Source of the DNA: Amphirosellinia nigrospora
Lineage: Eukaryota; Ascomycota; Sordariomycetes; Xylariales; Xylariaceae
Length of the DNA: 64,000 nt
Assembly (NCBI GenBank): GCA_004123355.1
Contig: SCHM01000002.1
Coordinates: forward strand, 5,367,569 to 5,431,568
Direction: 5' to 3'
Position 1 is the first letter of the stretch, and each line of letters opens with the position of its first letter. The notes under the pieces were generated by a model. The model was not told the origin of the DNA, made no database searches, and saw only the letters and a list, made by a program, of their open reading frames with translations. The position numbers and the translations under genes are program-made. Positions 1,740 to 62,788 of the stretch are shown here, piece after piece.

Positions 1740-4335
1740 ATGGCATCTCCTGGTGATAACCAGTCGTCTCTGGCGGCTTTCGGTGATAAGACATCACCTT
1801 CAGCACTAAGCTCTACAGCTACGTCTTATGATCTTCACCCAGATTGCTCGATATGCCGTGAGCTCGTCGAGAACCCCCAGGCACACCGGTACACAGTGTC
1901 AATACAAGGCGAGGATGGCCCACTACAAGGTGAGGATGGCACAATAGAAGGGGGCGCATTTAAGCTATTTCACACCCCATGCGACTCATGCCCTGACGAG
2001 GAATTGACATGTACGGAGCTGTGTCGGTTCTGCTGCCATCTCCGCCTAAGACATTTATCCCTTTGCGTGTCGTCTCAGCAATTCCCATTGGAAATTCAGG
2101 CTCGAAAACCCGACCCGGACTCGACTTGTCCGCTTTGTCAATTCTTTCTACGTGTCTCTTGTCGGGAATATCTGCCAAAGAAGAGAAACAGTACACTCGA
2201 ATTTCCGCTCTATCTATACACGACTGAATGGCATGCTCAACAAGTTCAGTGGCGGGTTACGGGGCCGGATTTCTTCAGTACACCAGCCCAGTTTCTCATC
2301 GTACAGGACGACGAAATACCTATCCCAGTGTTAGGAAATCTATTCTCGCCAGGACTAGACTATATGCGCTCTGCTATATCTCAATGCTTGGATAACCACA
2401 AGTCATGTAATGGCCCAGCAAATACCTTACTTCCACATAATTTTCGACTCGTCGACGTCGAGCGAAGATGTATCGTGGCTCTTGCGGATACGGCCGACAA
2501 GCCCTACATTGCGCTGAGCTACGTGTGGGGAGAGTCAAATAACGCAGACTGGTCGACTAAAATGAATATTGATGAACGACTAGTAGCGTTGGATATAACA
2601 GTACTACCTGCAACTATTAGAGACGCAATAGCTGCATGCGAACAGTTAGGAGAGCGGTACATTTGGATCGATCGTCTTTGCATCTTGCAAGATGACGAAA
2701 GAGACAAGATGTCTCAAGTCCATTCCATGGCCTCTATATACACCGGAGCGAAATTCGTTATTATAGATGCATCCAGCAATGGCATAAATGACGGTATTGC
2801 GGGAATTAGTCGAGTTAGAAAAACTCAGATCAGCGAAAGCCTAGCCGGCCTCAACATCAACATACAGCTTCCACCATTGTGGGACGTTGTAGGGCCAACT
2901 TCTTGGAATTCTAGAGGCTGGACCTATCAAGAGGCTATTCTCCCACTTCGCAAAATTTACTTTACGCAGTCACAAGTCTTCTACGAATGCGCTCTTCGTA
3001 TAGACCACGAAGAGACCCTCGCATATTCGTCTTTCGATCCTTCAATGCACGATAAAGTTAACTACCCTACGACGACAACAAGTCTTTGCTATGGTGCTGT
3101 GGGGCATTGCTGTGATGAATTAGAGAAGACTCAGCTGTCCAGTAGATCACAGCGGAGAAACCTTGGGACGCGTACGCAAGACATCTCCCACGTTACCGCC
3201 AAAGGCTGCTCCGTCAATCGTCAGACCTACTCAATGCCTTCTCGGGGATCATGGACGCTCTATATCCAGGAGGCAGTTCGTATTATGGACTTCCTACATC
3301 TGACATCGATATGGCGCTCATTTGGAGAAAATGGAACGACCCTTATGTGAGGAAAGTTCCACTGACTGGAAACCCCGAGATTCGCGGCGATGACCCTGGC
3401 CTCTTTCCCTCGTGGTCGTGGGCATCTGCGACGGAAGTGATTGTGGATTACGCTGACTCGAATGATTTCTGTGGCTCTCTGTGCCTATGGTTCCAACCAG
3501 ATACGATTGGGCGTCAACTACAGCCTATCTTGGCATCAAGTCAAGCGGCTGGTCGGTGGATTAGGACTTCTACGACTCGCACTTCCGACTCTCTTCGCGA
3601 GAGGGCAGATGACCACAAGCTTTGGATTAAACTTCTTGCAGATCACGTTTTGCTGTCGCCTGTTTGCGCTAATGCTACGGCGTGGGCCTTGGAAGCTCTT
3701 CTGATGTTACCGAAGAGTTAACCCAGAGATGGCCATCATACGAAGCCTTTTGGCAAGATGTCCACGGACAAGAGAATCACATGCGAGATATGCAGACTCT
3801 CCTTAACGAAGAAGTTCTTGACAGAATTCGAGACGGAGTTCTTGTCACCCGTGCTCAAATTTGTTCGGTCGAGGTACGGAAGGTCCTGACTTTGCCGACT
3901 GATTGGCCAGGTTCAAGACAGGGTAGGCCACTCGCTGTGTACAACTGTCACGGCCGTGAAATCGGATATGTGTATGACGACTGTAATGAGCGTATCAAAG
4001 ACTTTCTTCACGAAGAAATTGGAACTTTTGAGTGCGCTGCGTTGTCGGTATCAGCCCGTGAGGTCCGAATTAAGGAGGACTCTGTACAAAAGGACGAACG
4101 AAACGAAGCTGAGAATACATTCCAATCCGGCGGCGTAGGTTCCGAAGGAAATGAAAATAGGGGCGAATCAAAAGTTAGGAGTATTCCAACATATCGATGG
4201 GAAGTGCAACATTGGGCCAATGTTCTTATCATTCATAAGGATAATGGATATTGTTACCGTATTGGGTTAGGAGAGGTTAAAATGGATGACTGGCTTGAGC
4301 TACCGAAGAGAATGGAGACCATCATCTTGGGTTGA
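1740..4335 (+). CDS. HET-domain protein (heterokaryon incompatibility type)
   Basis: HET proteins act in fungal non-self recognition, where activation leads to cell death after fusion of unlike strains. The HET core is clear: IALSYVWG near residue 256, an RYIWIDRLCILQDD block near 305, and SRGWTYQE near 395. After an intron the frame resumes with LNAFSGIMDALYPGG, LPTSDIDMALIWR and the conserved FPSWSWAS. The intron ends at AG 3144-3145; the donor is either 3057 or 3099, both in phase and both weak. Near 3699 the frame shifts once: one extra T in a TT pair joins the upstream frame to VTEELTQRWPSYEAFW, and exon 2 then has an exact codon count to the stop. I read it as one gene of about 800-830 residues with a probable sequence error rather than a pseudogene. 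No NACHT or repeat domain is attached. Confidence 0.85.
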
Positions 4336-5196
4336 ATCTGTAATATGGGTGAGCCATATTGCAATTAACTACAGGATCACTGGCAAACCAGAGCACTACA
4401 GGGCCTATAGCCTCTGACCCCCTATATCTAGGTTCAAAAAAATTGGAGGAAGATAGAAGATGTCATAATCAATATAGCCTCGCGTAATACGGACCCTCTG
4501 GTGGTCCGACGGTCCGACGAGGCTTTCGAATATGTCTATGAATAAGGGATAACAGCGAGGTTACATTGTACAGATATAAGAAATTAGAGACCCTATAGGC
4601 CCAAAGGAGATCATTAGCCGAATAGAACACTGTGTTTCAAGTACTTGAGCACAAGCCTTAGTTACAACATTTCACAAGCGTGTAGACAATTTCTTTCGGA
4701 GGTAAAACGAATAAACAGTGAGACTGACGATAGGTAGCAGAACCAATAACAATACATGGTGCACACACACCCTACAAGTTTCGACGACTACCCAAACAAT
4801 CGTATACAGTATTATTGAGTGACAGAGAACTGCCTGCCATTTAGTCGGTGGGTATTAGACGACATGTTGCAATCTCATCGTACTTTACTCTCAGTTGGTT
4901 CGCGGCTCTACGTGCCAAGGAGCGAAATAAAAATTGGTGATACTATCGGTTGGATGAGAGGACATCATTTGGAGCTAGCCTTATATACCTGGAACATTGT
5001 CGAAATCAACGGTACTACTTAGGTTATTTCGTACTCTTGAGGTGTAACGGTGTAAGAGAGTCGGTATACTCCTGGAAAGGACAGGAGGGAAAGAAGTAAT
5101 AAAGTCTGGGATCCAAAGACCGATACCGATTGAATATGTATTCTCCTTATGTCTACCTACCTCTCATTCTACATACTTTCACTTTAAATCCTTGCC
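4336..5196. other. Intergenic, no gene seen
   Basis: AT-rich. It contains a short direct repeat of GGTCCGACG near 4502-4518. A GTG-started open frame at 4819-5022 has no recognisable features. Confidence 0.45.
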
Positions 5197-5899
5197 ATGT
5201 CTAGCAGTAGTATTATGTCTGGAGCGAGGTACTTTGGACAGACTTCACCAGATGACTTGAACCGACTTGAACTGAATGCTTTGAAAGCAACATCTAAACA
5301 GTTAGCAAAGGCGGCGAGCTATCTTGAAGCAGCTTTTGCCGGCCAAAACCATGCTTAGTTTGGCGGTTGGGCTATCAAACTCCGAGGGTCTCGACGAGAA
5401 ACTAAAGATCTAGATCTAGTTGTCGCGGCAGACGGCGTAGGGCAAGTGAGGGCTACCTTGTCCCCCGCAGTTGGTTCGACTACTTCTCCGATCAAATGTT
5501 TCATCAGTATTAATTTCTAGTTAGGGCTATATTAAACTACTACGAGCTGACAGGTAGCGTTCAAGAAAGACTCTTCGTGGACATCAGCGAAGGTGGACAG
5601 GTCGTAGGTGTAGATATCGTGCTCTCAGGTACGCGATATCGGAGGTCTGACATCGTCATTGCTAACGTCTTGAAGGAAGTCTTGATACCCCCGATCTACG
5701 GGTACCCGATTCGTTCGAGATTATTGAGCCCATGTTCCAGACACCTCAAGGGAATCAGGTCCCTGTTATCGAACTGGCGTGGCAGGTCGAAGGAAAACTG
5801 ACCGCATGGATGTCGAGGAAGAAGGACTCGGACTTTCAAGATCTGGAATTTCTCTTCGATCACTATGGGAAGTCATTCGGCAATAGAGTGAGCACCTAA
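5197..5899 (+). pseudogene. Nucleotidyltransferase-fold protein, interrupted
   Basis: The frame from ATG 5197 encodes FGGWAIKLRG followed by ETKDLDLVV, the Gly-Gly and Asp-x-Asp signature of the Pol-beta-type nucleotidyltransferase superfamily in its common fungal form. Later pieces fit the same family: ERLFVDISEGG, GVDIVLSG, then ELAWQVEGKLTAW and KKDSDFQDLEFLFDHYG. The frame is broken by TAG just before FGGW, by TAA near 5515, and by a length change at CCC 5705-5707. Both stops are of the CAR-to-TAR type that RIP would give, though other origins are possible. Substrate is unknown; members usually sit in variable fungal regions. It lies between a HET gene and a second nucleotidyltransferase-like gene. 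Confidence 0.6.
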
Positions 5900-5901
5900 G
5901 G

Positions 5902-6367
5902 ATGGATTGGCGAGTTGACTTCTATGAGGTCTATAAAGCAGGAAGGGGCGATTCAGCATCTCGAAAGGTTTTGCGGGAAACTCTCGGTCTTAAACGGCCT
6001 GGTGGAAGCTATGACAGCTATGAAAGTCATGGAACAAATGCTAGCCAAGCCGCCGTTCTCGGTACGAACCCCTTAATAGCTCGCTGTGTAGGAAGGAAGG
6101 CTGCTGATAGATGCACAAATAGGTTCAACGGCAATGAGTTCGCTTCAGCTGACACAGAAAGAGGAAGTCTGGGTGGAAGTCACGCGCAATGGCGGCATTA
6201 TTACTTTCGAATTTGGACAGAAACATGATGAGAAGGGTAAGCAGACAGCGAAATTTGTCAAGAGTAGGGCCAGCTCTGGAAAGAATCAACTACTATTTAT
6301 CAAGGACAAGTTTCTGGATGCTATAAGTTTGATAGCAAAGATTACGGGGTTTTCTGTACTTGGGTGA
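5902..6367 (+). CDS. Unrecognised frame downstream of the nucleotidyltransferase gene
   Basis: Two overlapping frames, 5902-6228 and 6134-6367, could form one small gene. The second gives a hydrophilic protein with VWVEVTRNGGIITFEFGQ and a Lys-rich middle. I do not recognise a family. It may be a remnant or the 3' part of the upstream gene, since only 2 bases separate them. Confidence 0.2.
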
Positions 6368-6743
6368 TATAGATTTGATTCTTGTGCTCTAATCGTTAAG
6401 TGTCGAGGTCAAAGGGATCAGAAGCAACACTCGAGTTTGGATACAGTATGAATGCTAGTTTTTGATAGGGCTTGACCCCCCACTGGATGGGGAGGACTCA
6501 AAATCAGTCTCACACTTAATCGACATACTTGTGACCTGTTTGTGGCTTAACTCGATTTGGAGCTGTGAATCCGCAACATGTTGACATCGACGATACGAGG
6601 GACTTGAGAAATCTCTTAGGTCGTGACATAATTAGAAGTAAATCATTAATCTTCCGGGATCATCAGAATGAATTTTAGATGGGAGTTACCCTATTCAACA
6701 TTTGGAGGTTGCCGAGCAAAAGAATGGCCACTCTTAGCCTGGT
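6368..6743. other. Intergenic between convergent genes
   Basis: Short AT-leaning stretch between two convergently transcribed frames. No feature seen. Confidence 0.4.
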
Positions 6744-7653
6744 TCATGCAATACTCAATACATCTCTGACATAACAGTCCATGGGTCCGGGTGCCTCGAA
6801 GGCGATACTGTGTGATAAAGATACACTCGGCTTTGTCCAATCCAGCCTGTCCTTTTTGGAGCGCACGAGAGATTGCCACATGTCCGCTTCTTCAGTTTCC
6901 GTCCTTAGCAAAACTCGCCAGTGCGCAAACTTTCCATTTGCGAATTCCCTTCCCCTCTTGTTCATATCTCGACCCCATTCGGCATCGTTGAATCCGTCAA
7001 GATCGAGATTATCTTCACCCCATTGCTCGGGTAGATCAGTGCCGTCTATAACGTCACAAAGTTGGAGTTTGTCGCCTGTATCTAAGCAGCTCTGAATGAA
7101 GACATCAAGTTTGGGATAAGGTAGACCTCTAAGACTCCGTGTCAAGTTGACGGCTCACAGACTATGTGATAATCGTTTGCAGGGACAATAATAAAATAGA
7201 AATCGTTCCGCGCCCTTGAAACGATATATGTGTGTAAAAGAGAGCTGCTTGGAAAAGGCCAGGGTTTTACCAAGCAGTAATCGTTCGAGAACAGTTCGGA
7301 TTGCAAAAAGCCCGGTTGCTTTGTCGACGAGGTCTGATGGAACACAGATTTCCCAGTCCTAAACCCAAATGTGAAAGGTTAGAAAGTTGATTACTTCGAT
7401 ATATATGCCAAGAGCTAGATCTGCATACCGGGCGTAATCTACCGGCTCCGTAGAAGATGAGTGCAGATATCCCAACAAGGCAACACGTGATGTTCGCATC
7501 TTCTAGGATCTTGGTGACCCTAAGGGCGTCGTCCGTGCCATGCCCACCATTCGATGCTGGCTGCTCGTCATCTATTTCCAACGGAGCTCTGGCAGAGGGA
7601 GGGGGTGGGGGCGGGGCCGGTGGAGCATTGGGGTCAACATAACGCCAAGACAT
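6744..7653 (-). CDS. Fungal nucleotidyltransferase-superfamily-like protein, two length breaks
   Basis: The N-terminus has a Pro-rich lead (NAPPAPPPPPPSARAP), then ITCCLVGISALIFYGAGR, the first block of a widespread fungal family related to nucleotidyltransferases. An intron (gtatgc at about 7435 to AG at about 7362) joins GRLRP to DWEICVPSDLVDKATG in phase. Later family blocks are NDFYFIIVPANDYH and TRSLRGLPYPKLDVF followed by IQSCLDTGDKLQLCDVIDG. The frame shifts at an A-run 7305-7309 (T-run on the coding strand) and at AA 7144-7145; restoring run length recovers the family reading (SELFSNDYC.., then STLTRSLRG). It is therefore probably intact. Role unknown; it may be a partner or relative of the gene at 5197. 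Confidence 0.65.
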
Positions 7654-8178
7654 CGAACAAGAGAGCGCGGCGTGCAGTATTAAGATACCTAGGTTGATTT
7701 TAGTGCAAAGGTTGTGAAAACAAGATGAGAGGTAGGGCTCAATGTAGATTATTAGTAGTTGGATGAATGTTTGACAGAGAAAATTGCCGAGAAAACAGAA
7801 TCGCGAGATTAGTAGGTGGAAAGGGGGGTTTGGGTGTTGGGCGTACGGCCTGTTGCTGGACCAATCATAATTTGTACTTGTGTTGCCGACGTAAAGGCGC
7901 TTTCATCTCTTTAATCAAAAAGCAAACGTTATGAATATCTAGGTTTAGAAACAATCAATCTCGGTTAAATATATGCTAGTAGAACTTAAGCGAGAAATTT
8001 AATCTGCAGCAGCGGCTTGGAACAATCATCGTAGCATAACGTACGAACTTCATTACGTTACGAGATTCGAGCGTGGGTTGTCAAGAAACATGTCCTTAAG
8101 CATTTCTTGAAACACAAGTAAGGCTATCGCAACAAGTGCAATTTCTATTCAACACGCCATGCCCTCAACTCAAGCATC
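7654..8178. other. Promoter side of the 7.6 kb gene and 3' side of the MDR gene
   Basis: AT-rich. No gene or repeat recognised. Confidence 0.4.
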
Positions 8179-9332
8179 CTAGTGATCGATGCGAATCACA
8201 ACCTTGGAGAAGTGTTTCTTCTCGCTCAAGCGCCGATAAGCATCTTTAGCATCCGCAAGCTCGAAAACAACATCATCCACTGCAGGCCGAATGCCCTTCT
8301 CATCAATATATCTCACAAGATCATGAAACTGTGCCCGAGTCCCTCCGAAGATCCCGCGAACGATGCAAGTATGCACCACAGCCGCAAATAGAGGCACCGG
8401 CTCAGCCGTTGCCTCCCCTACACCTCCAACAACCATAAGTACACCATCGGCCCGCACAGCGGCCAGAGATTGCGGGAGAGTCTGGTTTCCCCCCACATCG
8501 ACCACGAAATCAAACCCTCTTCCATCCGGGGTATGCTTTCGAGCTTCCACACCCCAAGATTCCGGGTTAGAGTGGTAGTTGACCGTGTGCGCGGCGCCCA
8601 GCGCAACCAATCTCGCCGCCTTGTCGTCCGTTGAAGTGGTTCCCACAACTTTGGCTCCCGCAGCTACAGCGAGCTGTAATGTGGCGATGCTCACGCCGCC
8701 TGTGCCCTGGATGAGGACCCACGAGTCAGGCCCGACTTGTTTGCCCTTGAGCCCGAATAGAGCATTCCAAGCTGTCGTCCATGTGCAGGTTAGTGTAGAG
8801 GCGGGTAGCCAGTCGAGGGATTTCGGGGCGGGGACTAGTGCGGCTTCTGGGAAGATGGCGTGGGATCTTAGAGTTCCGTCACTTCCCATTCCCAGCATGG
8901 CGCTGATGTCGGCGATTGTGGCGGGTGCGTCGTCGCCGCTTGCTTCGACTAGTTTCGGTGCAAGGTGTGTGACCACACTGTCACCTGGACGGAAGTCCTT
9001 AACGGAAGAGCCAACTGCTTCAACAATTCCGGCACCATCGCAACCGGGTATGACGGGCGGTTGAATTGGTCCCGCGATTGTCTAAATACCGAGCGAAGTC
9101 TGGTTAGCATAAAAGCAAATCCAAGCCCAGTTTCCTTATACCGATTCTGGCACTTCTGACTTACCCCTGGGGTCGCGATCATAAGTTCACGATAGTTCAA
9201 GCTGGCGGCAAGCATTTTGACTAGCACCTCCTTGGGACCTAGATCGCTTGGCGAGGGAACTTGTATGTTCTTTTGGTACTCCAGCGACTTTTCGAAGCCG
9301 TTCTGGCTGTTTAAGATCCATTGGCGTGCCAT
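8179..9332 (-). CDS. MDR-superfamily zinc-type alcohol dehydrogenase-like oxidoreductase
   Basis: This is an NAD(P)H-dependent medium-chain reductase, a quinone-oxidoreductase or alcohol-dehydrogenase-like type. Exon 1 is 9332-9165 (56 codons) and exon 2 is 9081-8179 (300 codons plus stop), separated by an 83-nt intron with GTAAGT and TTAG ends. The product is 356 residues. It has the N-terminal GroES-like block (KEVLVKMLAASLNYRE, then PGCDGAGIVEAVG), the nucleotide-binding IQGTGGVSIATLQLA with the VVGTTSTDDK strand, and the C-terminal FSKVVIRI ending. The structural-zinc Cys cluster of classical alcohol dehydrogenases is not evident. No length breaks are needed. Its substrate cannot be told from sequence. 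Confidence 0.9.
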
Positions 9333-9867
9333 CGTGTCGATATTCTAATATGAACTTTAAATATGCGTGAAGGGATGTTCTTTAAGGCCAGAAACTTTCG
9401 GATGATGGCCATCAATGTTGGATCATGATGGAAATCAAGCTCTTATATACGCATCTTAAAGGCAACGATGTCTATCTCCTCTTTAACTGGAATAAAAGTT
9501 TTGATTTCAAAGCTTATTGATGGACATACACTAATATCAATATCAATCAACTAATTTAGACTAACACCATCTCTCAGACAGGTTGAAGACAATACGAATG
9601 TTGGATCGATCCTTAATCAGCTATCTTAAGATGTGCTAGGACTATATTGATTTACTCAATTGGGTTTAGCGGAATAGAATGTGCATAAGAGGCTAAAAAT
9701 GATTCTACTAATTGGGAATAGTTTAGTTTCTATTCTAACATCTGCCGCTGACCTGCTTAGAAATAGAGCAAGATGTTCCCTTTTGGACGTGGATAACACT
9801 GTCTAGCTATTCTTTAATCTTGCCGTGTTACTGAAAATTGATTTCCCTAAAGCAGCCTCAGTCCGAC
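9333..9867. other. Divergent promoter region
   Basis: AT-rich shared upstream region of the MDR gene (minus) and the regulator (plus). No discrete operator recognised. Confidence 0.45.
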
Positions 9868-11297: not shown

Positions 11298-11615
11298 TCA
11301 ATATATTTTGGCATGTCTGATTATGATTTTAAGTTTGGTAGACTTAGTTTGCTTGAGCAAATTTCCTGCAAGGTGCCAGGGACAGGGATCAGACCACGGA
11401 GATAGCTTCATTGGCTCTCCATGCAACAAGTCTATGACACAAAGTCACTTAAAATTGTAGGAAGGCGATTTGACACGATCAAGCATTGAAACAGCTTCTG
11501 CATTCACTGATTGATTTAGGAGCTTCCCTTTCACGTTAATTCATGCCCCTCTGAGATAAACCGTATATATAAAGGAATGTAATGCAATGAAATTGCAAAG
11601 TGTGCACCTCAAGTT
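11298..11615. other. Intergenic between convergent genes
   Basis: AT-leaning; nothing recognised. Confidence 0.4.
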
Positions 11616-14022
11616 TTAGGAACCGCCATATGAATCGAGCCGCTCATACTTTCTTTCTGCTCGTTTTGCCTCGTCTCCTTTATGGAGATCATTAAGATAG
11701 GTCTTGAAATCCCGCGATAGCTCGACGACAGCTCGTAAGTGCTCGTCTGTGATGATAACCTTACCATCTTCTCCCTTCTCGGCGTCGTACTCTGCCAGAG
11801 ACACCGCTGTCTGGAAGGCTGTTTGGCTATCAGCGAAATCACACACCTAACCAGCCGGAAAATGAATAGAGCTCACCATTTCTGATTTCTCGTCCATTCC
11901 ACTTGAGCCCTCGCATCTCATTACCACGGATATAGTCCTTGGCGTCAATATTAAGTCGCATGTAGTCACCCCGCTCCTTCGCAAGTTTGTCGATAAACGT
12001 CTGCCAAATCTGGCGCCGCTGGTCGTCGTCAAATTCTGGATAATACAGCTGTATATGCACGCGTGAAATAAATGCGTCATCGAACGAGCCGACTCGGTTC
12101 GTTGTGAGGAACAGGATCCATCATAAAACTCGAGTGCTCGGAGGAAACCTGCGACCGAGTTAGTTATGCTAGGCGTGACTCTGTCCCATTCACGTATCGA
12201 TATAAAACGTACCGGCTACGAGACTGTTGCGGACAAGATCAGCTGTAGATCGACGTTCCATGAAAACATCGGCCTCGTCTATGAGTAGAACCGCGCCCCA
12301 GCGTCTGGCGATCTTGAAGTGTGCGGTGAGATTGGCTTCTACGTCTTCCGGATCTGTTCCAATATCGCTGGCCGTAAGAACCATTAAGGGGCGCTTAGTG
12401 AAAGCGGCGATGCATTCTTTTTGCCATGTTAGCGTGGTGAATTGGTATTATGAAGAGACTTGGGTTTACCAGCAGTATAAGTCTTTCCAACCCCAGGACG
12501 CCCGTGCAGTAGGAATATCAAGCCGTGCCCTTTTCCCTGAATAAAATCGGCCGTCCAAGGTTCGCCTTTTAATGTCTCTCCATTCCTGTTAGTTCGTGCA
12601 AAGCATTTCGCCAGTGCCATCAACGTGCGTTTCCGTTGAGGCTCCATGACCAGGTGATTGACCAAGCCTTCGTCAAACTTGGGCTCCGAAAAGTCTCGGA
12701 CGTGGAGGCTTTCTAGAACGGAGTTAGTCGAGACGCTCAAAGAAGCTCCTGAGCACTTACCCCATGTTCGAGTCTTGAAAATGAAAGCTGGTATCTCAAA
12801 CTGGCAAAGGAGGTATTGATGGGGTGTCAAGGTTTCAGATTCTAGCGCGATCGAATTATAGTCTTCAAAGAGTGATGCCATCTTCCTGCTATTCTTATCA
12901 TTTGTTGACTTGATTTTGCAGACCTCGCACTTACAGTCCGATGTCCAGTTGCGACAGTCTGTGTTGCCCATGAGATCTGGCTTCTCAACTTGATCAATGT
13001 AAGATTGTATATCGACCATTACTAGGCCATCGACCTATTGTCTGGTTAGTAATTTCATAATATTTCTCAATATTACCACGTACCTCTTGGGGGAAGTCGC
13101 CCTGTGTCTTTCCTTGTATTGTCTACATTGTTTATGCAGAAGTCTCCAGTATATTTGTCCATATTTCAGCTGATTGGAAACACTTTCAGGGAGCTCGTTG
13201 GTATGATCCAGGTCTCTAACAAAAAGAACTCGTCTTTATCTTCTGTCTCGCCGTCAAACTTCGATATTAACGTGCATTTAGTTTTTCTCCCCAAATATTG
13301 ACCGTCGAATATCATTTGCCAACCTTCTACGATCCAATCCCTGGAAGGTTGCTCGAAAGTTCCTCCTTTCATTGAAGATATGGCCCGTGGGTGGGGTTCT
13401 GTGCTGCCAGTAACCTGACCCGAGATTGTCGTTAAGATTGTCGTTCCTGGTTTCCACCTGACCCATGCATACTCGAACGTATAGTATCCCTTTGCGTTCC
13501 GCTCGATCTCTGTTCGAACTTCTGGCATGATGGTTGTGTCTAGATACTGCAAAAGCAAGCTAAGATCATCATAAGCTCCCATTTCTCTTTCACATAGATC
13601 TTTTTTATCTTTTCGTCCAACATTGTCTCGGAACTGGGTTAATTCGTCGTAGTGGTGAACTAAAATAGCATAGGGCCAATTTATCACGATGTCCCAGTGA
13701 GATCTTGAGATGGATAATATTGGACCACGGACCGTAAAGCGTTCACAATAGCTGGAGAGATTAAATGAAGAGAGTATGACGGAGGAGATAGCTCGCTTGT
13801 CGGCGACAAAGTAGTTCTGGTTTTGTACGTTGTGACCAGAATAAAGGCTGCCCTACTCCGGTTTTCAATGTTACCGTCATGGTCAGGGCCTGGACCTTTA
13901 GTATCACGGTGACTTATCAGCTCATTTGTCTCTCGGTGCCGATGCTCTACTCGATATTCGATCCATGGACCCCCGGGTTCGTCTTCGGTCTCCGCCTGTG
14001 AGGCAGGCTGTTTTGGCTCCAT
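11616..14022 (-). CDS. Fungal AAA+ ATPase with DUF7025-like N-terminal region
   Basis: The multi-exon gene begins at ATG 14022 (MEPKQPASQ). The N-terminal half has WPYAILVHHYDELTQF and WIVEGWQMIFDGQYLG, typical of the DUF7025 region that precedes the ATPase in this family. The ATPase follows: Walker A GRPGVGKT near 12480, Walker B AVLLIDEADVFMERR near 12260, and a sensor or arginine-finger stretch of TTNR plus FDDAFISRVHIQLYY type near 12070. The C-terminal lid includes MRGLKWNGREIRNAFQTA. Introns are visible near 13084-13040, 12760, 12470-12422, 12212-12149 and 11880-11825. Two apparent one-base losses, at CCC 13693-13695 and near 12117, interrupt an otherwise normal frame. Substrates of these fungal AAA proteins are unknown. 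Confidence 0.8.
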
Positions 14023-23330: not shown

Positions 23331-23655
23331 TTCTCATCTATCCTACACTCTCGTGAACCTCCATAGACTTATAAGCCGGAACCTGTGTGTCTCGATGATC
23401 CATCTCACTCTTCGGTGAAAGAATAAGACTCGCGAGACTCGTGCTACCCGATTAGTCTCGTGGGGTGATATTCTGTAAGATCTGTGTGACATGAACACCA
23501 GTAAGTAGAAGTGACAGATGTAAGGGTGTATATATGGGGACATTATGTATGTAGGACCCATGAAGAGTGAGTCTCGAGTGAAAATTTCCTGGTAATAGGG
23601 ATGAACTAGGAACTATGATAAAAAATATATTGATCGTGGTACAAAACGTATATCT
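23331..23655. other. Intergenic, no gene seen
   Basis: Short stretch between convergent genes; nothing recognised. Confidence 0.4.
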
Positions 23656-24828
23656 CTATTGATATGGATTTCCAGGTGTAAACTCCGGCTTCCACAGACC
23701 TTTCTTCTCCTTGATCTGTAATTGCATCCCTTCAGCAAACCGTAGATAGTCCGCAACATCGGCATCGGAACGCCCTTCGCCTCACCCTCCCGCAACGGCT
23801 CACCCACAATTGTCTCAATCTCCATGAAGTTTCCCTTTTCTGCGTCTTGACACATGCTAGGTTTGAACGCAGTGGCCGTTGTGTCGGCGCGGATGAGTTT
23901 ATCAGGAACATCATCTAACAAGTGAACGCCGTTGGCGCGCGCTGCTGCCATCACCTCGAGCATAATAGGCCGAATCAAGTCGTCGATTATATGTTGACTC
24001 ATGCGCATCCGCGCCGTGCCAATGCGTAAGATGGATGCGACCGGGTTGTAAGATGCGTTGTACACGAGCTTGCGCCACCGCGCAAATTTCGGGTCGGAGT
24101 CAAAGACGATATCAAGCTTATTGGCGGCATTGTAAATGGCTACGTACCGGCGTGCCGCGTCCTCTGCTACCCGAGCGACACGCCTGGGTTGTTGAAGGGC
24201 CCGATCTTCTGTGCGTCGACATTGTCGTGTAAGACCTTGCCGTGCTCTCTCTCAGTGGCACTAATGTAAGACACGCTGCTGATAATGGGGTTTGTGGGGA
24301 AGCGCTTGATGAGCGGCTTCTCAATATTAAGGCCATTTTGCGATAGAACAATGGCAGTCTTTCCCGGTGTGATGGCCGGCTCGATGATATCTGCCACGGT
24401 CGGCGGGATGTCCGGGATGTTCTTGGTTGTTACTAGGATGAAGTCGAAAGGTAGCAACTTTCCGCCGCTCACATTAGGGATTGTCTTAGCGACTAGCCGG
24501 GTGTAAGTCCATCTGCGCTCATGACACGCAGAAGACCGATCGCATACTGACCTACTGTAGGTCGCCAGCCTTTGATGTTTCGGCCATGTTCAATTGAATC
24601 TATATCAATCCCGTTCTTCTCGACTGCTGCATAGTTCGATCTCATTACTGCCGTGACTTCTGCCTTGCCACCGGTTTCAAGCGCATAGGCGGCCATAGTG
24701 CCTACGCCGCCACTACCAACAATCAAGACTCTTGCCTTCGCTTGCGCCGTCGTAATCGTGCGGCGAAAACATCGACTGGCGAAATCGCAACGGAATAGGG
24801 TTTGCCACATTGCCGCAGTGAGGGGCAT
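23656..24828 (-). CDS. Ketopantoate reductase family (ApbA/PanE-like) protein
   Basis: Family members reduce 2-dehydropantoate with NADPH; fungal paralogues near secondary-metabolism genes may use other keto acids. The Rossmann motif is VLIVGSGGVGTMAAY after a short possible targeting lead (MPLTAAMWQTLFR). Further blocks are ILVTTKNIPD, IVLSQNGLNIEKPL, and the C-terminal RKLVYNASYNPVASIL with MLEVMAAARANG. Intron 1 runs from gtcagt 24551 to TAG 24493 and is in phase. Two apparent one-base losses (CCC 24170-24172 and CCC 23728-23730) break the frame; restoring both gives SLGVAEDAARRYV and LLKGMQLQIKEKKG, and exon 2 then has the exact phase. Catalytic Lys and Asn lie in KKNIP/QNG-type motifs (KNIPD, QNGLN). 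Confidence 0.8.
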
Positions 24829-31071: not shown

Positions 31072-33351
31072 TCAGAATTTCAGCTTTGATAAGAAGCTCC
31101 AATTAGTTTTCGTTAACTCATTAAGCGCCGTAGCCAGTTGGTCTTCGTCCTTTGAGCTAATATCCCCAAACGGATAGTAATCGGGGTCGCATGTAGTCCC
31201 AGGACTAGGTAGCTGTCCGTGCTGGAAATAGTTATGAATATACTTGGCGGTGCAGATAGATGGCGCCGACAAGCTAGTATGCTATAATTAAGGAGTTAGT
31301 AGATAGTCATCTCACCAGGTGAGAGTGCTGGCATACCCCATAAGAGTTCTGGACTAGAACAACAGATCTGGGGAACCCCTGAGAATTGTTGGTAGCGCTT
31401 ACGAGCGGCGCAACGTTGTCAGCAATATTATTCACATATCTATTCAATGTCAACTACAGCTATTGCACGGCGCACAACAAGGCTTTGAGGCCGGCAACTT
31501 ACAGCATAGGATCGCTTGTATTCCCTTCAAAGGTCCTTCGAAAATGTCAGTATTCTATATAAAGGTGATTGTAGGCCTGGGTTCACATACCATCAAAACG
31601 CCATTTAGGTCGTATAGTTCGGCCTACACACGCAAGTCGGAAGAGTGCGTTGACGTCTCCGGCTGACTTGCTGATTTCGCCAAGCCGTTGAGCAAAATCG
31701 ATGAACTCGTCGACCGTATCATTCATTGTCGGCAAATCAGAGCACATGATAGCAGGGAACGCCTCACTGTTCCCTGACTCTAGTCGAGGTAGGTCAGGCG
31801 GGATAACTTCGGTCGAACAAATAGATGGTGCTGGACCTTCGGATTGGTCTTCCAAAGTGAATGTTAGTTCATGCTATCCTAAGCAAACAAGGGGTTGATA
31901 GACTTTCTAAGGCTTCCTAAAGAGTCAAAAGGTAGAATACAAAGGGATTCGATTGTGAATTGGGCAAATGTATTGAAACGAGGTGTAAAATCGTCTTGGA
32001 AATGACCTACATAGATTGTTGTTCAAGTTGTAGAATGGGCGTCCATCCCCAGCTTCTAGCGCGGCCAGTACCGTCGCGTATTTCTTAAATAAGAGTATAG
32101 GTCTGTATAGCGCCGCAGAAGTGAGTCGGCGGACATGCGACCAAGTAATGAGTTGTGGTATATTGGGCCCGTTAGTTGAGACCGGCCCCCGTGCCGTGAT
32201 GACGACCGGTTGCTTGCGGACTTTCTCTAGTAGGTTTTCAAGACGTTGCTCAATCAACTTGGGAGTCTCGGCGTAAAAGTCGCAACCCCTTTGACCGGCT
32301 TGGTGGCAGAAGTCATAGAATGCATTCATCACTTTATCCATGTCTCGCGGGAAGTTGATATAAGTTTGGTAGTGCCATTCTCGAAGGTCGACATTACCTA
32401 CAGCGCATTAATTATTGGTTAGCTACATATAGTTCCGCTTGCGAGGTCTAAATATCCAGAACTCACCATCACTGACAAGTCTCTCGACCTTATCCGGATA
32501 CATGGCCGCGAAAACACCACCAAGGATAGTGCCATAACTAAAACCCCAATACTTGAGCTTGTCTTGCCCTAGTTTGTGGAGAATCTCAAGCATGTCTCTG
32601 GCATGCGATGCAGTGCCGACATGACGTAGTATGTTCGATTTGCTCATCATGTGCTTCTCACATAGCTGAGAGAAGGCTGCTGCTCGGGCGTACACGTCGT
32701 AAATAGTACCAGGGTGTGCGTTTATCACTCCAAAATCTTGTAGGTCCCATAACTGTCTCTGTTCTGGGCTGTCCCAGCATTCAATTCTGGGTAACGTAGC
32801 ACCGATCCCCCGCGGGTCAAACGATATCAGATCGTAATTTCGACCGATAATGGTTTGTAGACTTGCACCGTGGTCTTTCAACCCAAATACACCGCTCTCC
32901 CCGGTCCTCCGGGGTTGAAGATGACGGGCCCACGGTAGTCATCTGTTTCGGTTGCACGAAGTCGAATGATGCCTATAATTACCCGCTCCTCGTCAGAAGG
33001 TTCCTGCCAATCCATAGGCAGATCTAGCCGAGCGCAGTCGTAGGCACCATCATAGCAGGAGTGCCATATTATGTCTCTACTAGGCTCGATCATACTCCAT
33101 TTCCACTCTCGGGCACCCTCATGTTGGCGGAAGCCTTGGCTTTGGGGACTCGCGCTAGACCGAGATGCAACCCTCTTCCAGTCGCGTAGCTGGTAAAGGA
33201 CAAATCCTGTCGCAATCAACACGAGCACGGCAGCATTAGCTACATGTCGCCAGTGATGCCTTTCTTGTCTTATATGCGACCTGCAGGTTGCCACAGACTG
33301 TAATGCATCTTTGCAATCAAGCCGGCGTTGTTGCATGTCCGGGTCAGGCAT
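31072..33351 (-). CDS. TAP-like alpha/beta hydrolase, membrane-anchored
   Basis: Serine hydrolase of the tripeptidyl-aminopeptidase-like fungal group. A single N-terminal membrane anchor (VLVLIATGFVLYQL) suggests a type II membrane protein with an extracytoplasmic catalytic part. Oxyanion-hole block NPGGPG is followed by DLISFDPRGIGATLP, the nucleophile elbow GFSYGT, and the C-terminal TAP region with a candidate Asp (NNIADNVAPL) and His (QNSYGHTS), then a CTAKYIHNYFQHGQLPSPGT block and stop at 31072. Introns include 32466-32398 and 31318-31265. One break at CCCC 32899-32902: adding a C (G on the coding strand) gives GPGESGV, the usual GGPGxSG, and restores exon phase. Substrate may be a peptide or ester. 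Confidence 0.8.
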
Positions 33352-34791: not shown

Positions 34792-35118
34792 TTATTTCAT
34801 AGGCATAGGGTGATGACCAGTCCCTTGCGCCGCGCCCGCGCCATTATTAGCCAGACCAGCCCCGGCCTGATTGTGCACCTTGCGGGCGGCGTGCTCTTGC
34901 TCGCGGGCGGCGAGCCTGTCGTCCACGGCCTGCATGTCGCTCTTCCCCTTCTGCGCGAGGGTCTCGTGCTTGAGCTCCGACGCCTGCGTCTCCGGGTGGT
35001 TCCGGCTGTTGTCGAAGGCCTGGTCCGTCGCCTGCATCAGGTTCCCGCGCAGCGCGTCGCCGGCGCCGCGGATGCCCTTCATGCCTGTCTTGACGTCTTC
35101 CACGATCTTGCTCGACAT
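34792..35118 (-). CDS. Small hydrophilic LEA/stress-like protein
   Basis: Intact 108-residue frame: MSSKIVEDVKTGMKGIRGAG, then LMQATDQAF, many charged and Ala residues, no membrane segment or Cys, and a Gly/Ala/His-rich tail. This resembles small, abundant, stress- or conidiation-associated fungal proteins. Predicted amphipathic helix at the start. The exact family is not certain. Confidence 0.65.
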   Translation of the reverse strand: MSSKIVEDVKTGMKGIRGAGDALRGNLMQATDQAFDNSRNHPETQASELKHETLAQKGKSDMQAVDDRLAAREQEHAARKVHNQAGAGLANNGAGAAQGTGHHPMPMK

Positions 35119-36118
35119 GTTGTCTAGTGCGGGGAGGTAGTAGATATAAATAGGTTGTTTGTCTTGGGTAGCAGTACGTCCTGCCAGGATTGTTAAGTCT
35201 AGATAGATGTAGGCGTATGAGGTTCTCTTGGGGTAGTAATTGAGATGTTTACGATTGAGTAAGGTAGGTAGCTTCGAAGTGCTGCTATATTAATATCCGT
35301 TTGTGAAGGGGCCAGATACGTATTGCCTCATTATACGCATTACGACAGAGAGCTGGAATGACGTATGTGTACCCAATCAACATCGCAGGTCCCTGGATTT
35401 AACCACATTAGTTCACTCATGTCGTCACCTTTTTGAAGCCCCTTCTCCACATCTGACGAGAGACACTATTGATAGTTGTTCGCCCGATATTACAATATTG
35501 TCCTGGCATCTCGGTCGGAATAAAGCCCTTCTGATAAGGCTAAAAAGCTGGAGTGGAAGAGCCCCAAGATCATACTAAAGCTACCTATGATTTTGTTTTT
35601 CCCTTAGTGTGACGGCTTAGGTGATCAATGCTACTTTGCGCGAAGCTAACTAAGTAGGTATATCATCCTCTCTTTGGGGCTAAAATGCACCTGTGCAAAG
35701 GGGCTGAATGCCGGGAAGCATCAGGTGAGGTTTTAAAGCAGAAACCCGATAGAACAAGTGGCCATTACCAAAATTCCATGGTATCTTATTAGACCAACAC
35801 GATGTTTTGTCGGACCTACTCCTGCCTGGGTATCTACCTGCCGCACCACCTACATCACAAGCCGCCTTTTTAGAATGGCACATAAGGCATTCATCACAAT
35901 AGCTCAGATCAATAAATGGGTCGATGGAAGTGTATTTTCTATCGACAACTATGCTTTTACCCATACCGAGAAACCGGATCCCTAATGCATCTACGAGCGC
36001 AAGACTCGGATGCGTGCATTGTGCATTGTGCGTGTGTGTGTTGGTCAAAGCGAGTTGACACAAAAGAAGTGGTGATGACACAGAGCCATCTCGACCTCAA
36101 AAAGAGAATCATAAAGAC
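35119..36118. other. Intergenic, no gene seen
   Basis: Contains probable 3' sequence of the next minus-strand gene. Nothing else recognised. Confidence 0.4.
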
Positions 36119-55622: not shown

Positions 55623-58093
55623 ATGTCCGACTTCAGGCTGTCTGCGCAGCTAGCTGGCCACGAAGCCGACGTACGTGTCCCAAGCTTGCCCGACCCCAAC
55701 TAATGTCGCATACGCGATACATATCAATACATGATCCGGCATAGCCCCTCTTGTCTAACCCGCCATCTCAATAGGTTCGCGATGTTTACTTTCCTAGCCC
55801 CGACCTCGTCGTCTCTGCCTCGAGAGACCACACCGTGCGCGCCTGGTCCCGGACCTCCGCCCTCCCCCGGCCTTCGAGTCTCATATCGTGACCCAAGGCT
55901 CCGAGTTTATCAATAGCCTGATATGCCTACCGCCTTCTATCGCTTTTCCTAAGGGCCTGGTCGTATCCGCCGGCACCGATGCCATCATCGATGTTCGGTC
56001 TGTCACCGCCGGTCCCTCCGACAATGCCGAGCGCTTGCTGATAGGCCACGCTCAGAACGTTTGCGCTCTAGCCATCGTCCCGGGTCTCAAATCCATCGTG
56101 TCGGGGAGTTGGGATAGTACCGCTCGTATATGGAATGTCGAAAATTGGGAGACCGAGGCTGTCCTAGAGGGCCACGAGGGTGCTGTTTGGGACGTATTGC
56201 CTTTGAGTGAAAGCCTCGTCGTTACTGGCTGTGCCGATAAGAACATTCGCGTGTTCGATCTTGGAAAAGCCACGGCCGGTCAAGTTCAGGCCCGGTCCAC
56301 TATCTACACCCCGGACGTTGTGCGCGCTCTCTGTCAAGTTCCCAGAAGCCACCCAAGTGGTGCAGACATCGCGAGCGCCAGCAATGATGGCATTATACGG
56401 CTCTGGAAATTGAATGGTCAACAAGTTGGGGAACTCAGGGGACACGAAAGCTTTATATATTCACTAACTTCGCTACCATCCGGGGAGCTTGTCAGTTCTG
56501 GTGAGGATCGCACAGTTCGGATATGGCGCGGCTCCGAATGCATACAAACCATAACGCATCCTGCCATCTCTGTCTGGTCCGTTGCCGTCAATCCGTCCAA
56601 TGGCGACATTGTGTCGGGCGCCAGTGACGGTGTCATCCGCGTATTCTCACGTGATGGCGAGCGCGTCGCCGGTCCTGAGACTCTAGCACATTTTGACGAG
56701 TCAGTGAAGTCTTCTTCCATCCCCCAGCATCAAGTAGGCGGCGTCAACAAAGAGAAACTCCCTGGCCCAGAGTTTTTAAAGACGAAATCAGGTACCAAAG
56801 AAGGCCAGGTTCAGATGATCAAGAAGATGATGGATCTGTTACGGCACATCAATGGTCCACGGGCCAGCAACAGTGGATCAACGTCGGTACTGTCGTGGAT
56901 GCCGTTGGTAGCAGTGGCCGAAAGGTTGAATACAACGGGCAATCCTACGATTATTTTCGATGTTGCGATTGAGGAAGGTCAACCCTCTCTTAAACTCCCT
57001 ATAATCTATCTGAAAACCCCTACGCCCGCGCCCAAAAGTTCATCGATGACAATGAGCTTTCCCAGAATTTCCTGGATCAAGTGGCTCAATTCATTGTCTC
57101 CAATACTCAAGGTGCGACGATTGGACAAACCTCAGAAGCTTCTTCAGGGCCAGATCAATATAATACCGAATCACGAGGGAGACCAATGCACCGAAAATTC
57201 TGCCGCTCCGAGATTACTTAGATATCACCGGTGCAAAATACGAGCGTGCGTACCTTCTTCTTATTCCAACCTCTAACCCTGTACTGACTCTCTGTAGCTA
57301 TGTTTAAGAAGATCTTAAGCGTTAACTCTGCCCTTGTCGCCGCTGGCCGTAAAGACATCTCCCTCAACCCTTCATCACAAAATGCCCTTAATACGCTTAA
57401 ACAAACATTAGAGTCCGGTAGTCCGGTAACGATGAACTCACTATTAGTTTAGTCGTCATGATGTGCACTCAGTGGGACTACTCGGAGAGAGTCGCCCCTC
57501 TAGATTTACTACGTTGTATTGCGACTTCACCGGCCACAGCCAAGTTTAAATCATCAGGAGAAAGTAGCCCAGTGCAGACAGCTATCTCAGCGGCACTCGA
57601 AGGCATTCCTGACGGGGGCCAACCTAACGGAATTGTACAATGATGCGTTACGCACTATGGTCAACCTATTCAAGTCCGCGGAAGGCAAAAAGCTTGTGGC
57701 GCAACCTTCTGAGACCTCGGCCGCCGTGTCATTCATTGGTCGAGTAGTCGGAAACCGAGGTCAGCCCGCTATTGGCCCTTTCAACCGAAACGTTTTGCTT
57801 GCTTTGACAACATTGGCGATCAACTACTCCATATTAGCCTCAAAACATCTAGGCAGTGTATCGACAGACAATCAGATACGACTGACGTCTTCCTCGCTCT
57901 GGTCCTGCAGAAGCAAACCGATTCTGAAGTCATCTACCGAGCACTCGTAGCTGTCGGCACACTCATCAGCGTAATTGGCAAGGCTGCTCCAGAAGCAAGG
58001 AGTTTGTCCTCTTCAATAAAGTCGGCCAAGGACAGGGTGTCTGAAGATAGGGTTCAAGCGATAGCAAACGAGTGTCTCTCTCTACTAGTTTAA
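55623..58093 (+). CDS. doa1: Ubiquitin-homeostasis factor Doa1/Ufd3 (PLAA homologue)
   Basis: Binds ubiquitin and Cdc48 and supports ubiquitin recycling. Exon 1 is 55623-55670 (MSDFRLSAQLAGHEAD); intron 55671-55774. WD40 blades follow: VRDVYFPSPDLVVSASRDHT, LVVSAGTDAIIDVRS, IVSGSWDSTARIWNV, LVVTGCADKNIRVFDL, SASNDGIIRLWKL, VSSGEDRTVRIWRG and VSGASDGVIRVFS. The PFU domain has INVGTVVDAV and NPYARAQKFIDDNELSQNFL. The PUL domain has LPLRDYLDITGAKYEP (across an intron ending near 57298), CTQWDYSERVAPLDLLRC and ALVAVGTLISVIGKA to the stop at 58093. About nine length changes break it, including CCCCC 55864-55868, TTTT 56954-56957, CCC 56997-56999 and CC 57191-57192. Confidence 0.9.
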
Positions 58094-59129
58094 TGTGGGT
58101 TATCTGTGAGAGCAGAGGGTTGCTGGCACGGTCGTGATTTCATCACCGGCCCTTGGAAACATGCTTAGGACGCGAATTGAACGGATGGAAATGCTTGAAA
58201 CATGAGTAAAAAAGGAATGGCATTAAAATAGACTATTTTCATTATAGAGGTTGAGGACCGTTTGCTACCCAATCCGGCTGCCGTCTGATGACGCAGCTTC
58301 TGAGACTCGATGGCTACATGATACCTTGATAGGTGGCGGTTTGCGGTGTGATGGGACTCTCGAGGCGCTCGGCATATCATTCGCATCTTTCTAGATAGCT
58401 ATGTCGTGGGAAGGAGCAGCATACGATTAATGCCAAACGTGATGTTGCTTCCTGAATGGTAGGCGATGTGTAGCGGTAAACGTTGTGAGGACTACCCCTA
58501 TCACCAACCAGGCGCGTCGTCAAACGTGTCCCAGGTTTCTGTCCGGTACCCCGGAAGTTGTGGATTCGATAAGACATATCGAAGTATACTTCTGGAAACT
58601 TTAAATTTAACTATAGCGTTTTACATCCCTTATCACAAGGGTCGAGGTTTTTTATATTCTAAGCGAGGTAATAGTAGACAATTCCTCTACTTGTAGACAT
58701 CATGAAGGGCACAATGTGTGAAGTGTCTAAGCACGGGATAAAAGCACACGTAATCACAAGAATCAGTAGACGCATCAGCAAATTGGCTGACTATTTTGAT
58801 TCAAACTTGATAGGTAGGCTAGTACCTAAGCACGCACCCTCCTCAACTCCAGCCTCCCTCCATTCCTCGCCTCGACGCCTAAAGGCAATTATATAACACC
58901 TTAGAAAAGAAGAAAAATTTGGTAGAAAAGATTTGTACAGTAAATGTGTAGAAAAAAATGTGGGTATAAAGCTTTCTTTCCTTTCCTTTCCAACAAAGCG
59001 GGCCCGTCCAACACGGGGCCGTCTATTCCCAATTCTCGTTGTTTTGTCACGTATCATGCTCGAGTACCGACCCGACGCTAGGTAGGTAGTTCATTCATGT
59101 TCATCATCCGTCACATCGTGTCATCAAAA
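58094..59129. other. Intergenic between convergent genes
   Basis: AT-rich 1 kb; nothing recognised. Confidence 0.4.
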
Positions 59130-59968
59130 TCACATCAATAACCACGCGGCGCCGACTAGTACGGGCACGTACCCCATCCACGGGGCGAGCCGCAGCAGGC
59201 TGGCGCCGCTGCCCGGGACGTTCATGTCGGCCGAGGCGCCGATGGGCGTCGTCGTGATGGAGTAGATGCTCGCGAAGCCGAGGTCGGAGCTGTTGTAGCA
59301 GTTGGTCTCGTTGACCTCGGGGATGCGCGGGTCGCCGGGCTTGGCGAAGGTGATGTCGACGCACTGAGGGGGCGGATGTTAGCTTTTTTTTGGGTCGTTG
59401 ATTTGTCCCCGTTGACGGGATAAGACTTACCGAAAACAGCGCCGCGCCGTGCATCGCGATCTCGACGATTTGAAGCGTCGCGTTGTCACCCTCGTTCATG
59501 GTCCAATTCGTGGGCAGCGGGACCTGTGGCAGGCACACGGTGCCGGGAAATGGGCCGTTCGAAGGGCCTAGGAGCTGGAATGGAGGGACCATGGGTTGGA
59601 CATGTTCAGCGGACCACCGTCTGGTCCGTCAGTGCCAACACCAATGTTGACGTAGAGGAGCGCCGTTTGATGACCCTGGAACCAGCCAGGCTGGAAAGCC
59701 AGCGCGCCACCCGTCGTTGGCCAGTATGTCCGGTTTGTTGTGAGGTTGATGCCACCGCCTGTCTTGGTGTTAGTCACTCGCTCGTTTGACTTCTCTTATG
59801 TGCAAGCATCATGGTTCGGGGGCGCTTACATGGATATTGCCATTGCATGCCGTAAGGCCAGGCCTCATTTGTGTGCAGGTTGTTTCCTCGCCATCCCGGA
59901 TAAGTGATGATTGTGTGTGCCGATGCTAATGTGGCGGCCGTGGCGGCCAGCAATAGTGAAGGCAACAT
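59130..59968 (-). CDS. BIM1-like copper-binding X325 protein, GPI-anchored type
   Basis: LPMO-fold family that binds Cu(II) by a histidine brace and serves copper acquisition or wall functions rather than polysaccharide cleavage. The signal peptide (MLPSLLLAATAATLASA) would be cut to leave His1 of HTIITYPGWRGNNLHTN. PYGMQWQYPCGG then follows across an intron. Exons are 59968-59830, 59758-59431 and 59363-59130. Other marks are IVEIAMHGAALFSCVDITF with the second candidate His, NETNCYNSSDLGF, and a hydrophobic end (VPVLVGAAWLLM) after a small-residue site, as for GPI anchoring. One C is missing at the GGG run 59593-59595 (plus strand); adding it restores NMSNPMVPPFQLLGPS and exact phase to exon 3. 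Confidence 0.88.
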
Positions 59969-61958
59969 CTTGTGTCGGTTTATTCAACTGCTCCTATACT
60001 CAAGGCTCGACGTGAGATCCCTTCCTGGAGTGAACAAGGGATCTGATGAGAACAGTGTTCCCGTCGGTTGTTTGTTCCGTCGAAACCACCGTCGGGTTCA
60101 AAGGCCTGATATAATGCCTAGCAATGTCGGGATCTGATTGAGAACTTGAATTGCTCCTTGGCGTACAATGGAATGTCAGCGTGACACCTAATTTATGTCC
60201 GCAAAAGGGAAATGAGGCCGATGTGACGCCAGTAAGGCAGTCTCGTTTTGATTATATTAATGGTTGGAGTGATGAGAGCGAGAGCGCGGGTTTGGTCTTC
60301 TCTTGGTCACAGGTCAAGTCAGTCTAAAAGGATCACAGAAAATGAAAAAGTCAATGAAAGGTGAGGCTGGGCGGTAGAGGGCAGATATTGCCATTAAGAA
60401 CGGGAGGCGACCCAACCAGCGACCACGGCAAACGTGCTCTCTCCCCATCACAATGCGGTCTAGTTGGCGAACTTGCATGACCACCAACCAGCCAGCCAGC
60501 CAATGTCAATACCTCGTCAATACCACCCGCCCCGAAGAGTCCAGGGGCCCTATCCATCTGGGCGGCATTTCCAGCCTCTGGACCAGTGAGAATGGCTGGA
60601 TGGTGTGCACGACGCACATCCGGCTTGTTAGACAGCCAATGGGAGAGCGACGACGAGCCAAAGCGAGCCGCCGAGCATCGAGCATCAGCGGGGCGTGATT
60701 CGCGGGCGCATAGCCAATGGTAACGTCGGACGGGCATCGAGGAGGGATCTAGTCCGGGGTAAGCAACAAGGTTGCCCAATAGGGTAAGCAACTCTCGCAA
60801 GGGTCTCTAGGTCCATTAGCGGCCCGTTGCTGGTCGCGGCCAGTAAAACCACGCAGACGTGAATAATTAAGCGCTGAGCTATCCCACTTGGGAAATCTGG
60901 TCTGCCCATCCTCTCCAATCCGAGAGCAGAAGCCAAGACACTAGGCTTGGCACACTGCTTTAGCGTGAGATGCTGTGTAGCCCTCCCAAGACTATTTTGG
61001 GAATTATATCGAGTGAAAGTGAAAGCAGACGATTGCGATTGATCGAGCTGGATTCAGCTTACTGGGCATGGCGAAGGAGAGGACATATATACAATATTAT
61101 GATGCCAACAATCAGTCAACATACCTAATCTCGAGTCATTTGACTGAGATGACCATGCAGGCAAGACGAGCGCTAGAACAGCCTCAGAAGTTTGCTATTA
61201 GCTACCCGCCGATGCATAAGCAGATCAGTTGTGATACTAAGCTGGAGGTAGCAGGCCTATGCGGTACCAGAAGACTGCCGAACGGGCTGCGTCCCTGGCC
61301 GCTGCTCGACGACCGCTGGGGCTTCCGAATATGCCGGGCGACTAGCATATAAGTCGGGTCCGGGTGGCTGACGTTAATTGATTGATAAGATCGATTGTCT
61401 CTTCCAAATACGAGAAACGTCACCACATTTATATACCCGCTCACCCTCAGCGAGAAAACAGGCGATAATCAGGAAGGAGTTGCATCGGCCGTAACATGTA
61501 TAAACACTGAAGCTTTTGTGTGAGATGCGACAATGGACTCTCTGCTTGCAATAATGTTTTAGGTAGGTGGTAGCTTTTTGGTAAATATGTAAAGCTTCAA
61601 GTTCCAAGGTAAGAGGGCTCCAGTGATGTTGAAGTAAAGGCTACCTACCCAGGTACCTAGGTACCTAGGTACCTACATCTGCATGCCATGTGGTGTATAG
61701 CGTATAATCGTTGTATCCAGTATTGTGCGACTCAGCCCCGGGCCGGATCCGTCCCGTGCGCGGAAGCCTCAGAGGGTAAATGAATAGACCTAAGGTTCAC
61801 CCGGACAGCTTATGGCGTCTCGGACATCCGAACGCCCACAAAAATATTATATTGGAAGTAAATCCACGGCGAGTGCCGAGAAACCAGAAACGGGCGACGA
61901 TTTCATTTTCTTCTCTCACCACCGACAAAACCAATCTTCATTCTACTACTTCGGAGTC
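59969..61958. other. Divergent promoter region
   Basis: 2 kb between the BIM1-like gene and the SRR1 gene. It contains a run of overlapping TACCTAGG palindromes at 61651-61675. Small frames at 60351-60936 and 61068-61352 have no family features. Confidence 0.5.
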
Positions 61959-62788
61959 ATGGCATCAATTACAGAATCTAAGGTTGTTTCCGAGCCGCAG
62001 CCGGCCGACGCTTGGGAGACAGTGCGCCGCAAGGGTCGCCGCCAGCCAGCAAAGATGTCTGCAGAAATGGAGCAGCCCACAGTGGTCCCGGCGGATCCAA
62101 CCATGTCTCTCGAGCAGGTGAAACAGAATCACCATCGTTTTCTAGCGAGTGGACATCCTCGCCCGAGCACACTAAACTTCAAGAGTTGCTATCAAGGCAT
62201 ACGTCTGGCCGTATGACCAAAGCTATATGCTTTGGTCTGGGAACTTTTGATCCCCCCGAAGGACAATGGAATTGGAAGCGCGTCGCTCACATCCAACTGG
62301 CCGCTTTCCTCACAGTCGTCGAGCATCTCCAAAGTAAAAAGAATAGTCTGATTCGGTGTATCTTCCAGGAGCCTAGTTTAACTCTGTCGACAAGGCCTTC
62401 ATCACAAGCCTAGGCCATGAAGTTGTAGAATCCCCCATCGGTTTCGAACTTGTCGACTCTGAAACTATGACCTTTGGTATGCATCTATATAGACCGATCT
62501 GCTTACAAATCGTCGCCAAATTCATTCCTGCCATGTACATCGGCACTTCATATGAGGCTTGGGAAAGGTAAGTTACACGAGAGTGTCTAGCTTCTTACTT
62601 AATAATGATATACACTCAAACTTGGCTCCTCAGCTAATCAAGGACAGCACGACCGACGTAGAAAAAATGGACTTAACTCGCTAAAGGAAATGAGTCAACA
62701 ATCTGTTAACGCCGACTTTCCGTATAACATGACTGATCATGTGTTCAGCGGAAGTACAATATATTGGCGAAAAACAAATCAGAGTTAA
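61959..62788 (+). CDS. SRR1-like domain protein
   Basis: SRR1-like proteins are small conserved eukaryotic proteins linked to circadian and stress regulation in plants and yeast. ATG 61959 opens MASITESKVVSEPQ, then AWETVRRKGRRQPAK. The SRR1 core has KAICFGLGTFDPP, AHIQLAAFLTVVEHLQ, IFQEPSF, SLGHEVVESPIGFELVD and MTFGMHLYRPICLQIVAKFI. An intron (gtaagt near 62571) leads to a last exon with MTDHVFSGSTIYWRKTNQS ending at 62788. Apparent one-base losses are at CCC 62162-62164 and TTT 62377-62379, with one or two more around the last exon. Restoring them gives a continuous family-like protein. Confidence 0.75.

Follow-up and report, generated by a model that had tools for sequence, protein, structure and literature searches.

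Long-read assemblies are known to carry insertions and deletions, largely at homopolymers, which split genes and produce false pseudogenes, as set out in the Kastor report (PMC12007338; Watson and Warr cited therein). The cases described there are short homopolymer indels that break genes, as we observe here, although they come from bacteria, and deletions stand out there after long homopolymers, whereas the present assembly is fungal and the affected runs are 2 to 6 bases long. A second parallel is Rosellinia necatrix, also a fungus and with a similar-sized genome, for which PMC10796067 describes nine nanopore assemblies with BUSCO values of 68-83%, i.e., completeness was low in nanopore-only assemblies. 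For R. necatrix R18, the same source reports that BUSCO rose from 82.5% to 97% in an assembly built from reads corrected by short reads, together with longer reads and Hi-C, and these two R18 assemblies thus differ by more than read correction. R18 has 45.5% GC in that source and its largest contig measures 7.1 Mb; here, contig C1 measures 13.8 Mb and the window has a GC content of 45-54% in 4-kb steps. Indels in runs are also found in living fungi with defective mismatch repair: according to PMC5614558, homopolymer shifts make up 45.3% of the private variants of the msh2 strain ICB107 of Cryptococcus deuterogattii, and approximately 24% of run mutations in the mutator fell in nine-base runs. 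Run-length indels are common to those hypermutators and to the present case, but in the former stability falls with run length and the strains survive, whereas in the latter the affected runs are short and the affected genes indispensable.

We analyzed a window of 64,000 nucleotides of Amphirosellinia nigrospora (C4:5367569-5431568), which belongs to an assembly of 48.1 Mb made up of 11 contigs. A first-pass annotation of this window had listed 25 sites at which conserved genes appear to lose their reading frame, nearly always through loss of a single base in a short homopolymer, and had proposed consensus error as the likely cause. The frame changes that we located in individual genes by Pfam scan and three-frame view are collected in Table 1.

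Table 1. Apparent frame changes in genes of the 64,000-nucleotide window (positions counted from the first letter of the window)
Feature	Position	Strand	Basis or remark
PLAA/Doa1-like gene (WD40, PFU, PUL), several frames	55798..58090	+	Pfam scan of open pieces, three-frame view
Frame change at PFU start, absent from the first-pass list	56815..56830	+	Pfam scan and three-frame view; placed by eye
Two frame changes within PFU, ~42 nt apart	56954..56997	+	Pfam model 57 then 73, three-frame view
Frame change within PUL, absent from the first-pass list	57602..57645	+	model 116 then 134, 43 nt between
Frame change within PUL, absent from the first-pass list	57854..57893	+	model ends 210/199 overlap, different frames
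Frame change within SRR1 domain	62377..62383	+	model 1-61 then 60-125, 7-nt overlap, different frames
Frame change between N- and C-terminal domains, ketopantoate reductase-like gene	24170..24251	-	Pfam matches either side
Frame change in BIM1-like gene, near listed 59593	59571..59628	-	both halves below Pfam cut-off
Two overlapping open frames, alpha/beta hydrolase gene	32881..32938	-	family match on downstream side only
Two apparent frame changes downstream of HET domain	3146..3721	+	only 3699 in the first-pass list

Examination of the PLAA/Doa1-like gene demonstrated a WD40 match in the piece at 55798-57273, followed by a PFU domain that is divided between two pieces, with model positions 14-57 in 56697-56969 and 73-112 in 56994-57218. 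The first of these matches ends at 56954 and the second starts at 56997, and the intervening 42 nt lie in the third frame. The PUL domain is spread over three pieces (model positions 59-116, 134-210 and 199-277), and a search with the PUL piece for a solved relative returned none at E 0.1. At least three breaks in this gene, near 56.82 kb, 57.60-57.65 kb and 57.85-57.89 kb, are missing from the first-pass list. In the ketopantoate reductase-like gene, ApbA (62-149) is found in 24170-24589 and ApbA_C (5-123) in 23616-24251, in different frames. The HET-domain gene has a second apparent frame change at 3146-3347, upstream of the listed site at 3699, and neither of its two junction pieces downstream of the HET domain gave a Pfam match above cut-off. 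Elsewhere in the window, none of six pieces tried from or beside the stretch at 21.6-23.3 kb matched Pfam, and at 34795-35289 an open frame of 165 amino acids with no Pfam match looks like an intact small protein.

As a set, the 25 listed sites are less easily judged. Pfam families are matched on both sides of the break at five (24170, 56954, 56997, 59593, the last of these weakly, and 62377) and on one side at nine, in some cases below cut-off (12117, 13693, 17503, 23728, 32899, 43079, 55864, 57191 and 62162), while at the remaining 11 neither junction piece matched (3699, 5705, 7305, 10970, 30591, 42037, 42714, 42927, 49341, 49923 and 53260); at 12117, 23728, 49341, 49923 and 57191 this tally covers one junction piece. 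A position test that ignores families, and takes the length of the open frame on the weaker side where two different frames meet, gave a median of 214 nt at the listed sites versus 117 nt at 4000 random positions and 146 nt at 1500 positions lying 60-400 nt away. The overlap between these distributions is wide: an open frame of at least 120 nt is present at 24 of 25 listed sites versus 48% of random positions, and chance alone yields much of the open-frame length seen at the listed sites. The best frame pair corresponds to one base lost at 20 sites and to one gained or two lost at five, a count that depends to some degree on which pair is taken as best. The base named in the first-pass list lies in a run of at least three at 18 sites and of at least two at 24; for comparison, runs of at least three take up 15.5% of window positions. 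Since the sites were picked by the earlier reader, this count is no independent test. The observed run-length counts agree with a first-order Markov simulation, so that no general shortening of runs is visible in the window and the comparison is uninformative. The claim that conserved genes here are frame-broken thus stands for the frame changes without intron room in the window and is only partly borne out site by site, with family matches on both sides at five of the 25. The pattern in the window is real, and the list of 25 sites is incomplete.

We searched the whole assembly with the profiles PF00118, PF00012, PF00133, PF00562, PF05192 and PF00022, ordered the pieces of each gene, and compared their actual spacing with the spacing expected from the model. 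This analysis identified 57 junctions, of which 33 are frame changes without room for an intron, 16 are either an intron or a break, and eight keep the same frame. The frame changes without intron room are distributed as nine in chaperonin, six in Hsp70, one in tRNA synthetase, seven in RNA polymerase, none in MutS_III and 10 in actin genes. The phase is one base short in 24 of the 33. In the size spectrum, read directly from the 19 tight junctions whose ends lie within 3 nt of model expectation (the other 14 deviate from it by more than 3 nt in one direction or the other and are too loose to size), 15 are -1, three are -2, one is +2 (in phase equal to one short) and none is +1. One-base loss, put forward from the window as the prevailing type, is thus borne out across the assembly at 15 of the 19 junctions that could be sized; run context at several junctions was judged by eye. 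The density of breaks is 22 in 27.8 kb of matched sequence for three families; taking the six together gives 33 in 45.2 kb. Several features of the survey count against consensus error: the distribution of breaks is uneven across loci, MutS_III shows a break without intron room at none of six loci (tRNA-synt_1 at one of six), and at one Hsp70 junction four bases are lacking. A search for COX1 found no match in the assembly, which may therefore lack the mitochondrial genome.

On several contigs, frame breaks are observed directly in genes expected to be indispensable, as those for CCT, RNA polymerase and actin are in yeast. Six of nine chaperonin loci are broken, one of the six on a loose junction, and none of the other three shows a break (a tenth locus, a one-piece partial match, is excluded from this count). 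Two of three loci for the second-largest RNA polymerase subunit are broken, and the third (C1:13601920-13603005) has TAG as the first codon of the match, with the remainder open. One gene for this subunit (C6:2233230-2234286) has five frame changes in approximately 1 kb, far above the average. Four of 10 Hsp70-family loci are broken; in one, residue 465 of the solved Hsc70 (3c7n) ends one piece and begins the next, and in two the frame is lost in a common C-rich motif. The first 40 residues of an actin piece match a solved actin at 39 positions (40 of 44 across the full alignment), and the frame is lost at a C run right after this stretch. Breaks therefore occur irrespective of the indispensability of the gene, with six of nine chaperonin and two of three RNA polymerase loci affected and none of six MutS_III loci. 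A haploid fungus with such frames should not survive, and the frames are consequently not the organism's own, unless they are restored after transcription.

Contig C10 ends in copies of the rDNA unit, which offer a test that is free of protein reading. Pairwise alignment covered the readable rDNA, which takes in only part of the two masked halves per unit, with copy B as the reference, although B is not known to be right. Against B, copy A differs by four indels and no substitutions in 7073 columns, copy D by two indels and no substitutions in 7072 columns, copy E by one indel and no substitutions in 1332 columns, and copy C by 40 indels and four substitutions in 6681 columns, i.e., 47 indels versus four substitutions are directly observed in the four comparisons together. 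Single letters make up 39 of the 47 indels and multiple letters eight; among the one-letter indels, 20 lie in runs of at least three and 28 in runs of at least two. Repeat divergence would be expected to add substitutions as well. Insertions relative to B account for 18 of the 47; this share, the multi-letter events and the limited number of one-letter events in runs of at least three count against consensus error. In copy C, 32 of the 40 indels and all four substitutions fall in one stretch of approximately 0.9 kb, likely spacer by position. This dense patch (within C10:30001-40000) occurs in a single rDNA copy, its neighbours hardly differ, and the copy looks as if built from few reads. A multiple alignment of the copies placed strings of substitutions between close indels; we judged them to be misaligned, and the counts given here come from pairwise alignment in which mismatches cost more. 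BLAST of the rDNA copies, with and without gaps, likewise gives few mismatches.

Three other accounts of the broken frames were weighed against consensus error. Ordinary introns or pseudogene decay, which we consider very unlikely as an explanation of the whole, would draw on the room for an intron at 16 of the 57 junctions, the frame kept at eight, and the SDR junction near 28.2 kb of the window, where coordinates also leave room for one; weakly supported window sites may likewise be introns or chance open frames. Introns do explain some junctions, but not the 33 without intron room, many of which have overlapping ends and contiguous model positions. A mismatch-repair-deficient mutator strain, in which the one-base deletions in runs are real, has precedent in hypermutator fungi such as C. 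deuterogattii (PMC5614558), and an MSH6-like gene, named by inspection, does show a frame change of the one-base type after its Walker A region. Such a strain would be expected to have lost MSH2, MLH1 or a partner gene; of these, MSH2 is open and collinear with residues 57-911 of solved Msh2, which speaks against a mutator arising from MSH2 loss, and an MSH3-like gene, also named by inspection, is open over 1112 amino acids. A mutator would be expected to favour long runs, but runs of two or three are affected here, and it would be expected to leave indispensable genes intact, whereas chaperonin, RNA polymerase and actin genes are broken; loss of frame in actin, RNA polymerase subunits and the majority of CCT genes should be lethal to a haploid. 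We therefore regard such a strain as highly improbable.

It is extremely unlikely, in our assessment, that the genomic shortfalls are real and are repaired by insertional RNA editing, slippage or frameshifting. Under this reading a filamentous fungus would truly be short of single bases at a great many short runs, those in actin, CCT and RNA polymerase genes included, and its mRNAs or ribosomes would restore the frame. Restoration would account for breaks in indispensable genes together with conservation of the protein on either side, and the gene data alone leave room for it. Judging from the density of breaks, however, very many sites would be required, and runs of two or three are too short for ready slippage. 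The coding-strand base that is lost also seems by inspection to vary, being C in actin and Hsp70, G and A in CCT, and T and G in the PLAA-like gene, and similar indels separate the rDNA copies, including what is by position likely spacer. The discordance of the rDNA, the varied bases and the short runs thus speak against restoration after transcription.

We put at approximately 0.96 the probability that the apparent one-base gene breaks are consensus errors of the assembly and not biology. The cause proposed from the window is supported because indispensable genes elsewhere in the assembly are broken in the same way and repeat copies disagree almost only by indels, and this reading jointly accounts for the breaks in indispensable genes, losses from runs as short as two, and rDNA indels with hardly any substitution. 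The consensus would still contain approximately 0.7-0.8 gene-breaking indels in each kb of conserved coding sequence, for the most part a single base dropped from a short run, while the genes would be intact in the living genome and runs would be longer in the reads than in the consensus. Long-read basecalling together with insufficient polishing is the probable cause, and the artefact is of an ordinary, already known kind.

With 11 contigs the assembly looks contiguous, yet at a density of 0.7-0.8 gene-breaking indels per kb approximately one such indel is expected per 1.5-kb coding sequence. The same caution applies to anything else concluded from this genome on the strength of broken frames, and pseudogene calls, gene counts, gene-loss claims and gene inventories drawn from this assembly would be unreliable until it is polished.
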